DNA of 64,000 nt from Nitratireductor sp. XY-223 (lineage in GTDB: Bacteria; Pseudomonadota; Alphaproteobacteria; Rhizobiales; Rhizobiaceae): NCBI RefSeq assembly GCF_004959855.1, contig NZ_SPNT01000003.1:62001-126000 (forward strand), written 5' to 3'. Shown one piece after another: positions 57,801 through 61,792 of the stretch. Each line of letters opens with the position of its first letter. Within the stretch, counting starts at the first letter, position 1. The notes beneath the pieces are model-generated. The model had not been told where the DNA came from and did not search any database. It saw nothing but the letters and a program-made list of their open reading frames with translations. The translations under genes and the position numbers were made by a program.

Positions 57801-57827
57801 TGACCTCCAGAACATGACTGGAGGTCA
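57801..57827 (+). promoter_or_regulatory. Hairpin occluding the Shine-Dalgarno of porin 1
   Basis: TGACCTCCAG-aacatga-CTGGAGGTCA; perfect 10-bp stem, GGAGGT fully paired, ATG at 57831. Confidence 0.65.
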
Positions 57828-57973
57828 GAAATGAAAATCAAGAGCCTTCTTCTCGGCTCCGCTGCGGCAATGCTCGCAGTCTCCGGTGCTTCTGCGGCAG
57901 ACGCTATCGTCGCAGCTGAGCCGGAACCCGTCGAATATGTGCGCGTCTGTGACGCCTTCGGCGCTGGTTACTT
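57815..57973 (+). repeat. 159-bp perfect inverted repeat, porin 1 copy
   Basis: Identical to the reverse complement of 61125-61283, by manual base-by-base comparison. Confidence 0.9.
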
Positions 57974-59000
57974 CTACATCCCGGGCACGGAAACCTGCCT
58001 GAAGATCAGCGGTTTCGTCCGCATGAATGTAACCTATTCCAACAATGATGTCGGCGAGCAGACGTCAAGCGCAAGCAGCTGGGGTACTTCGGTACGCGGT
58101 CGCGTGAACTTCCAGGCCAAGGAAGACACCGAATATGGTGTTCTGCATGCCTATGTCCGTTTGCAGGGTGACAATTCCGGCGGCGGCGATGGTGCCGTGG
58201 TGGTCGACCAGGGTTACGCAGAACTGGGCGGCCTTGTCTTTGGTTACACGGAAAGCGTCTGGGTCAGCTCCAAGAACGGTGGTGCATCGGGTTTCGGTTC
58301 GCACTCTGACAACGGATTGAACTACGGTTACGGCCAGGCCAACCAGATCGGTTACAACTTCACCGGTGCTAACTGGTTCGCGGCCATTTCGGCACAGGAC
58401 GATGGTGACGCTTCAAGTGCAATGCCTGACATCGCGGGCCGTATCGGCGGCGTTTTCGCCGGTGCGACGATCTATGCCGCTGCCGGTTACGACCAGTCGG
58501 CTGAAAACTTCGGCGTCAAGCTCGGCCTCAACACCGACATCGGTCCGGCCGGCAATCTGATCGTTCAGGGTTTCTACGCTGACGGTCCGACGATCTTTGG
58601 TGCAAACACGACGCTTCCACTGACAGCAGCCACGAAGGGTACACGTACCGCCGAATGGTCTGTCCTGGCGTCTTATCAGCACCAGTTCACGCCGAACTTC
58701 AAGGGTTCGGTCGGTGGTCAGTATTCCGCTGACTACTACGCAACCGCCCTCAACAGCATTCTGAATGCTGCGCCGGGTACCGTAACGACGACGCAGACTG
58801 CCCTTGGAAGCGCTTCTTCCGGGATCGACTCCTGGGCTGTTGAAGGTGTTCTCGTCTGGAACCCGGTTGCAAACCTCGAAGTTCGCGGTGAGGTTCGCTA
58901 CACCACTTTCTCTGGTCTGGCAGCCGGACTTCCTGCAGGCAGCTACTTCGGCGTCGATGATCAGGTCGACACGCTGTTCCGTCTGCAGCGCAACTTCTAA
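57831..59000 (+). CDS. Outer-membrane porin, Omp2/RopA type (paralog 1)
   Basis: MKIKSLLLGSAAAMLAVSGASAADAIVAAEPEPVEYVRVCDAFGAGYFYIPGTETCLKISGFVRM...C-terminal FRLQRNF. Confidence 0.95.
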   Translation: MKIKSLLLGSAAAMLAVSGASAADAIVAAEPEPVEYVRVCDAFGAGYFYIPGTETCLKISGFVRMNVTYSNNDVGEQTSSASSWGTSVRGRVNFQAKEDTEYGVLHAYVRLQGDNSGGGDGAVVVDQGYAELGGLVFGYTESVWVSSKNGGASGFGSHSDNGLNYGYGQANQIGYNFTGANWFAAISAQDDGDASSAMPDIAGRIGGVFAGATIYAAAGYDQSAENFGVKLGLNTDIGPAGNLIVQGFYADGPTIFGANTTLPLTAATKGTRTAEWSVLASYQHQFTPNFKGSVGGQYSADYYATALNSILNAAPGTVTTTQTALGSASSGIDSWAVEGVLVWNPVANLEVRGEVRYTTFSGLAAGLPAGSYFGVDDQVDTLFRLQRNF

Positions 59001-59001
59001 G
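58974..59001 (+). repeat. 28-bp perfect inverted repeat at porin 3' ends (copy 1)
   Basis: CTGTTCCGTCTGCAGCGCAACTTCTAAG, same as reverse complement of 60148-60175. Confidence 0.85.
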
Positions 59002-59065
59002 CTGAACTGAATAAACCAAAGCAGTCGCCCGATAACGGGCGGCTGCAACTTAAAAGTTGCATACG

Positions 59066-59095
59066 CCTGGTAGTGTTTACTACCGGGTGTTTTGG
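59066..59095 (+). terminator. Probable terminator downstream of porin 1
   Basis: CCTGGTAGT-gttt-ACTACCGGG followed by TGTTTT. Confidence 0.6.
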
Positions 59096-59146
59096 CTTGC
59101 CTAGAGGAAACAACCTGTGTTAAGCAAAACCATACCCATACAACTT

Positions 59147-59171
59147 TACCAATTGACGCGTCTAAATGGTA
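59147..59171. other. Imperfect palindrome upstream of integrase (candidate recombinase core or operator site)
   Basis: TACCAATT-GACGCGTC-T-AAATGGTA; central 8 bp self-complementary, arms 7/8 complementary. Confidence 0.35.
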
Positions 59172-59203
59172 TTTCTTGATATTGTTTGTTCCGGTTGTAG
59201 GTC

Positions 59204-60049
59204 ATGCTTAAAAAAGAAGACAGTAATTTAGTAGAACTTTGGGAAGCTTACAGCGATTTACTATGGGAGGAAGGCAAGCATAAAGAAGCATGTCGTAGTT
59301 ATATTGACGAAATAAGCCGTTTTATGTTGTATAGCGGCAGGAGAAAATTCGACAACAACTTGCTGGATGATCTGACGATTCACTTCCGCCAGAAGGGCAA
59401 TCGCAACTCAACGATCAACCGCAAGTTTGCAAGTCTTTCCAAACTGCTGCGCAGGCATCACAGGAACGGCGGGCTCGCACAGCTTCCCGAATTCCGGAAA
59501 CTGCCGGAGCGAAACGCCCGGATCCGGTTTCTTTCAAGGGAAGAAGAGACCGATCTGTTCAGCCGGATCAACGCCATAGACAATTCCTACGCCCGGCTCA
59601 GTCTTTTCCTGGTCGAGACTGGTGCACGGGTTGGGGAGGCTCTGAAACTGAATTGGGGGGATATCGAGGGTGATTATATCACCTTCTGGGAGACCAAATC
59701 ATACCGGCCCCGGACCATCCCGATGACGATCCGCGCCAAGAAAGCCGTATCCGAACAACGCAGTGCATCGGGGCGTAAGCCGGGCCCTTTTCACGGGATT
59801 GCCTACGCAAAATATCGCAACGCCTGGCATGAGGCCAAGGATAGCACCCATATGCGCGATGATCGCCAGGTCGTACCACACGTGTTGCGGCACACCTGCG
59901 CATCACGCCTTGCCCAGTCGGGAGTCGATATCAAAAGGATCCAGGAATTCCTGGGGCATCGGACACTCAGCATGACGCTGCGCTATGCGCATCTATCACC
60001 GAAACATCTTGATGTTTGTGCTGAGGCCTTGAACAAGCTGCACCACTGA
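59204..60049 (+). CDS. Tyrosine-type site-specific recombinase/integrase
   Basis: 281 aa; TGARVGEALKLNWGDI, HVLRHTCASRLAQSGVDIKRIQEFLGHRTLSMTLRYAHLSP (R...HxxR...H...Y intact). Confidence 0.93.
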   Translation: MLKKEDSNLVELWEAYSDLLWEEGKHKEACRSYIDEISRFMLYSGRRKFDNNLLDDLTIHFRQKGNRNSTINRKFASLSKLLRRHHRNGGLAQLPEFRKLPERNARIRFLSREEETDLFSRINAIDNSYARLSLFLVETGARVGEALKLNWGDIEGDYITFWETKSYRPRTIPMTIRAKKAVSEQRSASGRKPGPFHGIAYAKYRNAWHEAKDSTHMRDDRQVVPHVLRHTCASRLAQSGVDIKRIQEFLGHRTLSMTLRYAHLSPKHLDVCAEALNKLHH

Positions 60050-60095
60050 CGACGGGGTTCCGTCGGTCACGGCGCGCCCGGTGAAGAAGGCAAAG

Positions 60096-60129
60096 AAAAA
60101 GCCCGGCAGCCAAGCTGCCGGGCTCTTTT
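60096..60129. terminator. Bidirectional terminator between integrase and porin 2
   Basis: AAAAA-GCCCGGCAGC-caa-GCTGCCGGGC-TCTTTT; perfect 10-bp stem. Confidence 0.9.
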
Positions 60130-60147
60130 GACGTGTATCTAAGCGAC

Positions 60148-60175
60148 CTTAGAAGTTGCGCTGCAGACGGAACAG
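60148..60175 (-). repeat. 28-bp perfect inverted repeat at porin 3' ends (copy 2)
   Basis: CTTAGAAGTTGCGCTGCAGACGGAACAG. Confidence 0.85.
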
Positions 60176-61267
60176 GCCCGTTGTAGCGTCGCCACCAACG
60201 TATGCGCCGGTGTCGGCAAGACCGCTGGAGAAGTCGGTGTAGCGAACTTCACCGCGAACTTCGAGGTTAGCAACCGGGTTCCAGACCAGAACACCTTCGA
60301 TTGCCCACGAGTCGATGCCGGAGTTGGCGCTAGCAATAGGAGCCGTGCCGGCAAGAGCGTTGAAGTAGTAATCAGAGGAGTACTGACCACCGACCGAACC
60401 CTTGAAGTTCGGAGCGAACTGGTGCTGGTACGAAGCAATGACTGACCACTCGGGCGTGTAGGTGCCGCCACCAGCAATACCGGTCGGCGATGCGTTGGCG
60501 CCGTAGCGGGTCGGACCGTCAGCGTAGAAACCCTGAACGATCACGTTACCAGCCGGACCGACGTCCATGTTCAAGCCGAGCTTGAGACCGAAGTTCTCAG
60601 CGGACTGGTCGTAACCGCCAGCACCATAGATCGTTGCACCGGCAAAGACACCGCCCACACGACCCGTGATATCAGGCATGTAAGTCGCACCGTCGCCATC
60701 GTCGTTGGCGGAGATCGCTGCGAACCAGTTGGAACCGGTCAGGTTGTAACCGATCTGGTTTGCCTGCGAGTAGCCGTAGTTCAGACCGTTGTCGGAGTGC
60801 GAACCGAAGCCCGATGCACCACCGTTCTTGGAGCTGACCCAGGTCGTTTCCGTGTAACCGAAGATCAGGCCGCCGAGTTCGGCGTATGCCTGGTCGACGA
60901 AGGTCGGCAGGTCGTAGGTGGCGGCGTTGTTCAGGTCAGCAGTGCTTGTATCGCCCTGGATACGGACATAAGCGTGCAGCACACCGTATTCGGTGTCTTC
61001 CTTGGCCTGGAAGTTCACACGACCACGTACGTTGGTGGTGTAGCTGTCGTTGTTGCTGTTGAAGTTGATGTCCATACGGACAAAACCGCTGATCTTCAGG
61101 CAGGTTTCCGTGCCCGGGATGTAAAAGTAACCAGCGCCGAAGGCGTCACAGACGCGCACATATTCGACGGGTTCCGGCTCAGCTGCGACGATAGCGTCTG
61201 CCGCAGAAGCACCGGAGACTGCGAGCATTGCCGCAGCGGAGCCGAGAAGAAGGCTCTTGATTTTCAT
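60149..61267 (-). CDS. Outer-membrane porin, Omp2/RopA type (paralog 2)
   Basis: First 65 residues identical to porin 1 through SGFVRM; ends GLFRLQRNF. Confidence 0.95.
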   Translation of the reverse strand: MKIKSLLLGSAAAMLAVSGASAADAIVAAEPEPVEYVRVCDAFGAGYFYIPGTETCLKISGFVRMDINFNSNNDSYTTNVRGRVNFQAKEDTEYGVLHAYVRIQGDTSTADLNNAATYDLPTFVDQAYAELGGLIFGYTETTWVSSKNGGASGFGSHSDNGLNYGYSQANQIGYNLTGSNWFAAISANDDGDGATYMPDITGRVGGVFAGATIYGAGGYDQSAENFGLKLGLNMDVGPAGNVIVQGFYADGPTRYGANASPTGIAGGGTYTPEWSVIASYQHQFAPNFKGSVGGQYSSDYYFNALAGTAPIASANSGIDSWAIEGVLVWNPVANLEVRGEVRYTDFSSGLADTGAYVGGDATTGLFRLQRNF

Positions 61268-61283
61268 TTCTGACCTCCAGTCA
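61125..61283 (-). repeat. 159-bp perfect inverted repeat, porin 2 copy
   Basis: Reverse complement identical to 57815-57973. Confidence 0.9.
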
Positions 61284-61702
61284 ATTTCCTTAAACGGTCT
61301 GGGCATTGGCTGCGAGGCAGCGTTCCCTGTCCCATCCCCAACTAAAAAGAAGATAAACGCCAATCCGTCCCTCTTCCGAGATTGAAGATACCGAACGGGT
61401 TGCGTGAAGCAACGGGGATTTTGGTTTCTGTTAGGGCTGTGGAAGAGGTTGGGGGGTAGCTGTTGCACAAAAGACACGATTTCGCTCACGCAGCCCCCCA
61501 AACCCTTTACAGCCGTTAATAAAATTCACGGAAATCCGACGGGAATCGGTGCGGAACTCCACCCGGACGGGCGTCGAAACGGCCGTAAATACCCATCAAG
61601 TGCGTTTTGATTCGGACTTGTGGACAATGTCGCACCGGTCCTGATTCCCCCGCTTCGGGCCGATTTCCTCGACTGACCTGGGATAAATGCGGGGAGGCTA
61701 TA

Positions 61703-61792
61703 TGGCGGAGAGGAAGGGATTCGAACCCTCGAGACGGTTCCCCGTCTACTCCCTTAGCAGGGGAGCGCCTTCGACCACTCGGCCACCTCTCC
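61703..61792 (-). tRNA. tRNA-Ser(GCT)
   Basis: Reverse strand GGAGAGGTGGCCGAGTGGTCGAAGGCGCTCCCCTGCTAAGGGAGTAGACGGGG...GGTTCGAATCCCTTCCTCTCCGCCA; class II with long variable arm, encoded CCA. Confidence 0.95.

Follow-up and report, generated by a model that had tools for sequence, protein, structure and literature searches.

We analysed a 64-kb window, the whole stretch of 64,000 nucleotides of Nitratireductor sp. XY-223 DNA presented above, in which two porin genes in inverted orientation enclose a tyrosine recombinase gene. Comparison of this locus with its counterparts across the Rhizobiaceae indicates that it is probably a dedicated, vertically inherited porin switch, in which the recombinase would act at the porin leader through both inversion and cassette insertion.

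The first-pass annotation of the window had described an inverted porin pair around an intact recombinase with all expected catalytic residues. The coordinates (Table 1) and the Porin_2 and Phage_integrase profile matches bear out this layout, and the residues R142, K165, H226, R229, H252 and Y261 are all present and invariant in 101/101 relatives. Its description of the arms as homologous held only in part: the inverted arms exist but are not evenly alike, with ~98% identity from about −20 to +195 (~codon 65) and ~75% in the porin bodies. Alignment of the arms within the window yielded 216 nt at 98%, followed by arms of 80-89% across the rest of the porin genes, and upstream of −20 the two porin flanks share no homology. 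An inverted pair of the 13-mer TGACTGGAGGTCA, which contains the ribosome-binding sequence GGAGG, coincides with the end coordinates of the 57815-61283 locus. Its degenerate form TG[AT]CTNNN[AG]GTCA matched two sites in 64 kb, both at porin leaders, against 0.1 expected. In the present arrangement porin 2 lies behind a leader of the type here called C, and the leader of porin 1 contains a perfect 9-bp hairpin over the ribosome-binding sequence (predicted RNA fold of the leader window, −37 kcal/mol).

Profile analysis placed the enzyme among the tyrosine recombinases (PF00589, E=3.8e-24, over the cut-off), nearer in sequence to P2/HP1 integrases than to inverton enzymes of the fimB/fimE or Mpi type. 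A Xer identity was rejected, as scores fell below the curated cut-offs for XerD (81 vs 329.6 bits), XerC (72.6 vs 335) and XerA (86.7 vs 220). An integron integrase was likewise rejected (62 bits, cut-off 265); this test covered the integrase profile, attC sites were not searched for, and the cassette ends seen are porin-leader 13-mers.

Relatives of the recombinase were identified in 137/398 genomes of the family, representing 45 of the 109 sampled genera, nearly all as a single copy with an open reading frame; outside the family they are rare in an order-level sample. Among the single-recombinase loci fetched (35 genera), 96/99 carry a same-strand porin directly upstream of the recombinase. 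The gene is under purifying selection, with a ratio of nonsynonymous to synonymous substitution rates (dN/dS) of ~0.08 among congeners, and the recombinase tree groups by genus (37 label changes, minimum 36), pointing to vertical inheritance of the chromosomal copies. The first-pass annotation had favoured a dedicated recombinase over a passive insertion and called for a survey of related genomes. That survey sustains its preference: the recombinase accompanies porins in the 35 genera examined, is inherited vertically, and is carried by 76 inverted porin pairs rather than occurring as a sporadic remnant. The conserved unit consists of the porin and recombinase only, on chromosome or plasmid, which is not the setting of a prophage integrase or of an integrative and conjugative element. 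Between the porin stop and the recombinase, or just past the recombinase, no motif is conserved across genera. Two genomes of the window's genus (G007 and G003; loci L060 and L061) have two convergent recombinase genes, one per porin, in the order porin> rec> <rec <porin.

A second porin in inverted orientation is almost always present at recombinase loci. The commonest layout is divergent (<porin porin> recombinase>), and the convergent layout with the recombinase inside occurs in the window's genus, in Sinorhizobium and in a few others. In recombinase-less genomes the porins are usually single or tandem, with ~22 tandem-only adjacent sets against 5 with an inverted pair, in a manual count over 130 searched genomes that is uncorrected for shared ancestry. 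Within a genus, individual genomes tend to carry both the second, inverted porin and the recombinase, or neither.

Comparison of leaders in 71 inverted pairs revealed a consistent asymmetry. One porin has the C leader, marked by CCCAGACCC ~35 nt before the ATG, and the other has an unrelated, variable leader (V). Among the classified rows, 53 have the C leader at the non-recombinase porin and 14 have it at the recombinase-side porin. Complements of the Shine-Dalgarno sequence (anti-SD 5-mers) occur in 23/71 V leaders vs 0/71 C leaders. Sequestration of the ribosome-binding site was nevertheless rejected as a general rule for V leaders, given that only these 23/71 carry such a 5-mer and that the Shine-Dalgarno sequence of C leaders is also predicted to be paired. 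The motifs TGTCCTTCAG (23/31 genera) and GGGGATGGGG (21/31) are kept upstream of the partner porin in recombinase-bearing loci and are probable regulatory elements of the C leader.

The porin 5′ ends are homogenised at recombinase loci. Over the first 150 nt, median identity reaches 99.3% in the 76 inverted pairs with the recombinase, vs 90.7% in 25 tandem pairs and 80% in 4 inverted pairs lacking it (Mann-Whitney U test, p=8e-10). Body identity is alike in all pair classes, at 75-78% (~76% with the recombinase). Third-position identity is 98% within a locus vs 88% between congeners, which dates the exchange to after speciation. Third porins that neighbour recombinase-bearing pairs mostly show lower 5′-end identity. 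Exchange focused on the 5′ end, together with a linked recombinase, sets these loci apart from a conversion pair of the Brucella omp2 type.

Comparisons between related species revealed both orientations. The C/V leader state changes at least 8 times on the recombinase tree. In g52, the intergenic DNA of one locus (L108) aligns to six congeners only when inverted (81-88%, vs ~61% in the same orientation), and inverted intergenic segments were also found in g47, g74 and the clearest pairs of g51. In the convergent layout, the inner porin-recombinase-porin segment is common to Sinorhizobium K101 and S. meliloti Ak57 and lies the same way round in both, with the flanks inverted between them and the change falling at the leaders. 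The locus thereby displays the hallmarks of an inverton, namely short inverted sites, a linked recombinase and, between related species, both orientations. The tRNA-Ser(GCT) gene can sit inside the invertible segment of divergent loci (e.g., L080 5948-6038 and L108 5913-6003), so that its orientation changes with the switch.

The first-pass annotation had proposed that recombination would flip the integrase segment and exchange porin 3′ parts. These inversions uphold the flip; in place of an exchange inside the gene, they join promoter and leader to a different porin body in its entirety, and the break falls at the leader 13-mer or close to it.

A separate pattern was seen in Sinorhizobium K101, G790 and G346 (loci L199, L230 and L140), where flanks are 97-99% identical and the recombinase protein 100% identical, while the body of the C-leader porin differs by ~11%. 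This suggests a recent replacement of the porin behind the putative main promoter. Because the recombinase proteins of K101, G790 and G346 are 100% identical, the code g46 was taken to be Sinorhizobium.

In 12 other recombinase-bearing genomes scanned, the exact 13-mer occurs in two copies each, one per strand, at the porin pair. The extended site comprises 7-bp arms, TTCTGAC and GTCAGAA, around TGGAG (approximately TTYTGAC-TGGAG-GTCAGAA), and conservation of the right arm GTCAGAA is higher in genera with the recombinase than in those without (28/34 vs 11/32 genera, p=0.0001). A recombinase-specific site that would show as added codon constraint at the start of the porin gene was rejected: codons there are equally conserved with and without the recombinase. 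A third copy of TGACTGGAGGTCA occurs in the genome from which the window comes, near another porin (contig C10, 18651-19845; L215), which lacks the usual leader and carries the 13-mer inverted ~30 bp past its stop; this may be the relic of a recombination event. On contig C5 of the same genome (L216), a porin fragment of ~88 aa runs into the contig end, marking an assembly break within another porin copy.

As read from sequence, the most telling evidence for the putative site is the mobile form of the cassette. Porin-recombinase pairs are found on plasmids of S. meliloti, S. medicae, Ensifer and Pseudorhizobium. The copy on pSymA of S. meliloti R28 and the first cassette of Ak57, which is chromosomal, are 99.0% identical over 2.33 kb, and the identity stops on both sides at 13-mers (TGTCTGGAGGTCA / TGACTAGCAGTCA in pSymA, TGACTGGAGGTCA twice in Ak57), the outer 50 nt being unrelated (46% and 56%). 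Because the right end of the pSymA cassette lies in non-porin DNA, homologous recombination between porins cannot have made that end. The E. adhaerens and Pseudorhizobium cassettes end at the variants TGACTAGCAGTCA and TGACTGATGGTCA. Within Ak57, the cassette has the C promoter on one side and the next porin on the other, matching the expectation for promoter capture. On Pseudorhizobium plasmids 2 and 3 (L206 3541-5990 and L213), the cassette lies between the two copies of a 60-bp inverted repeat belonging to the surrounding DNA, and looks as though it could invert in its entirety as an on/off unit.

Table 1. Features of the porin-recombinase locus in the 64-kb window
Feature	Coordinates	Strand	Details
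Porin 1 (recombinase-side porin)	57831..59000	+	389 aa; Pfam Porin_2, E=5e-60
Tyrosine recombinase, P2/HP1-integrase-like	59204..60049	+	281 aa; Phage_integrase, E=4e-24; full set of catalytic residues
Porin 2, behind C-type leader	60149..61267	-	372 aa; Porin_2, E=5e-62
Left arm of near-identical inverted repeat (porin 1 5′ end)	57810..58025	+	98% to 61073-61288
Right arm of near-identical inverted repeat (porin 2 5′ end)	61073..61288	-	216 nt
Proposed recombination site, left copy, TGACTGGAGGTCA	57815..57827	+	3 bp upstream of porin 1 ATG; also bounds the Sinorhizobium mobile cassette
Proposed recombination site, right copy, TGACTGGAGGTCA	61271..61283	-	13-mer scan
Perfect 9-bp inverted repeat GACCTCCAG-aacatga-CTGGAGGTC, porin 1 leader (variable, V)	57802..57826	+	sequence; predicted pairing with ribosome-binding sequence
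CCCAGACCG, C-type leader motif upstream of porin 2 (CCCAGACCC in relatives)	61295..61303	-	sequence; leader comparison
tRNA-Ser(GCT), conserved neighbour	61703..61792	-	part of the invertible segment at some divergent-type loci

Collectively, these patterns suggest a mechanism in which the recombinase would recognise the translation leader of porin genes, centred on TGACTGGAGGTCA, and exchange strands there. Acting on two inverted leaders, it would invert the DNA between them, and the porin bodies would swap promoters. In the window, the segment of porin 1 body, recombinase and porin 2 body would flip between two fixed, unrelated upstream regions; at the divergent loci of most genera, a segment of ~0.6-1 kb with both promoters would flip. 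In either layout the C leader and the other leader would trade porins. With sites in direct repeat, a porin-recombinase cassette would be inserted or excised, and an incoming promoterless porin would land behind a resident promoter. We infer that the linked recombinase carries out the reaction. Conservation is the basis for regarding C as the presumed strong or active promoter, and the likely benefit would be evasion of phages or other porin-recognising agents.

An extension of this scheme, on which we are evenly balanced, is that of a self-mobilising surface-gene cassette which has adopted the porin ribosome-binding leader as its attachment site, providing both an on-chromosome switch and a horizontally moving porin cassette across the family. 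If the leader is the attachment site, each insertion or inversion would automatically place a porin without its own promoter downstream of a resident porin's.

Several observations weigh against a site-specific switch, and some would be expected if RecA-dependent homologous recombination or gene conversion between inverted paralogs had made the inversions and the identical 5′ ends, with the recombinase a conserved neighbour that has another job. The homologous arms of ~200 bp would let RecA invert the segment too; whole-gene conversion exists, the pairs of L112 and L080 being identical along the whole gene; and G133 has a recombinase-less inverted pair that is homogenised all the same. Conversion of Brucella omp2 occurs without a described recombinase (PMC7050475), and a fusion deletion of ropA1/ropA2 arose in a phage-resistant Agrobacterium mutant (PMC10132094). 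Porins of recombinase-less genomes have the 13-mer as their leader too, so that it is not specific to the recombinase; as a leader common to porins of the family, its conservation alone is no proof of a site. Both orientations were not seen in any one strain: three 99.9%-identical Sinorhizobium strains are all in one orientation, and 12/12 sampled Sinorhizobium species have a single state. A search with joined flanks for the empty site of the pSymA insertion (CTGATTTTGTCTAGCAGTCA) found no record spanning the join and no clean empty site; S. medicae ml18 and ml49 are without the cassette, and their homology ends before the junction. Homology-driven exchange nonetheless appears unlikely to account for the pattern: homogenisation is concentrated at the 5′ end, bodies are no more alike with the recombinase than without it, three of the four recombinase-less inverted pairs are not homogenised, and neighbouring third porins in the same genomes mostly are not either. 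It also leaves the cassette ends at a 13-mer in non-porin DNA unexplained.

The plasmid cassettes raise a different possibility, that porin and recombinase form mainly a small mobile element targeting porin leaders, with inverted pairs as insertion products and switching as a by-product. The site-like ends of the accessory-plasmid cassettes, the extra cassette in Ak57, the joint presence or absence of recombinase and second inverted porin within genera, and the double-recombinase loci of G003 and G007 all favour it. The chromosomal copies, however, are vertically inherited and mostly single, tRNA-Ser is often kept as a neighbour, and a third site permitting excision is usually absent (1/169 sites lies downstream of the recombinase). 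We regard this account as improbable, although it is partly compatible with the switch and our confidence in the two overlaps. To a passive insertion or remnant prophage integrase between the porins we assign almost no probability. The P2/HP1-integrase-like family and the nearby tRNA-Ser, a usual prophage target, are in keeping with such an origin; the survey of relatives rules it out, with 45 genera, purifying selection, invariant catalytic residues, near-constant linkage to porins and a module free of other phage genes.

The proposed porin switch shares elements with several known systems. In Campylobacter fetus sapA and Dichelobacter nodosus omp1, inversion serves one promoter to alternative surface-protein genes and breaks at conserved 5′ ends, and inversion at C. 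fetus sapA needs RecA. The inverted homologous 5′ ends and the alternative surface-protein genes behind one promoter are common to these systems and the Rhizobiaceae locus, whereas the protein families and phyla differ, and the Rhizobiaceae locus has its own tyrosine recombinase and a ribosome-binding leader as proposed site. The fimB/fimE and Bacteroides Mpi invertons likewise combine a tyrosine recombinase with short inverted sites to invert a promoter or gene, but the porin-linked enzyme is nearer to P2/HP1 integrases. Integrons use a tyrosine recombinase to insert a promoterless gene behind a resident promoter. The porin cassettes resemble them in this capture and differ in that every cassette has its own recombinase and that the site would be a porin leader of 13-19 bp, not attI/attC.

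Literature searches found no prior report of a porin-linked recombinase switch, and a survey of invertons recorded no inversion among its 4 alphaproteobacterial samples (PMC5903667). Porins are major surface proteins; if the proposed mechanism is correct, a family-wide, recombinase-driven porin switch would offer symbionts and their environmental relatives a ready route to phage escape or surface change, and a site-specific recombination target would double as a translation leader.

The closest parallels involve porins themselves. The first-pass annotation had pointed to Brucella omp2a/omp2b, two related porin genes in opposite orientation, ~0.8 kb apart, that exchange sequence and of which only omp2b has been shown to be expressed (PMC7050475). 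The likeness holds for inverted, related porins exchanging sequence but not for the mode of exchange: in Brucella the known process is gene conversion within the two genes, and the paper mentions no recombinase and describes no promoter inversion (PMC7050475). PhiM9 of S. meliloti and at least ten further phages are recorded as using RopA1-type porins as receptors, and resistance to phage OLIVR5 in an Agrobacterium mutant went with recombination between ropA1 and ropA2, a deletion that fused the pair (PMC10132094). Homologous porins that serve as phage receptors, and recombination of a pair accompanying phage resistance, resemble what is proposed here, although the ropA1-ropA2 event was reported as a fusion deletion and not as a programmed inversion.

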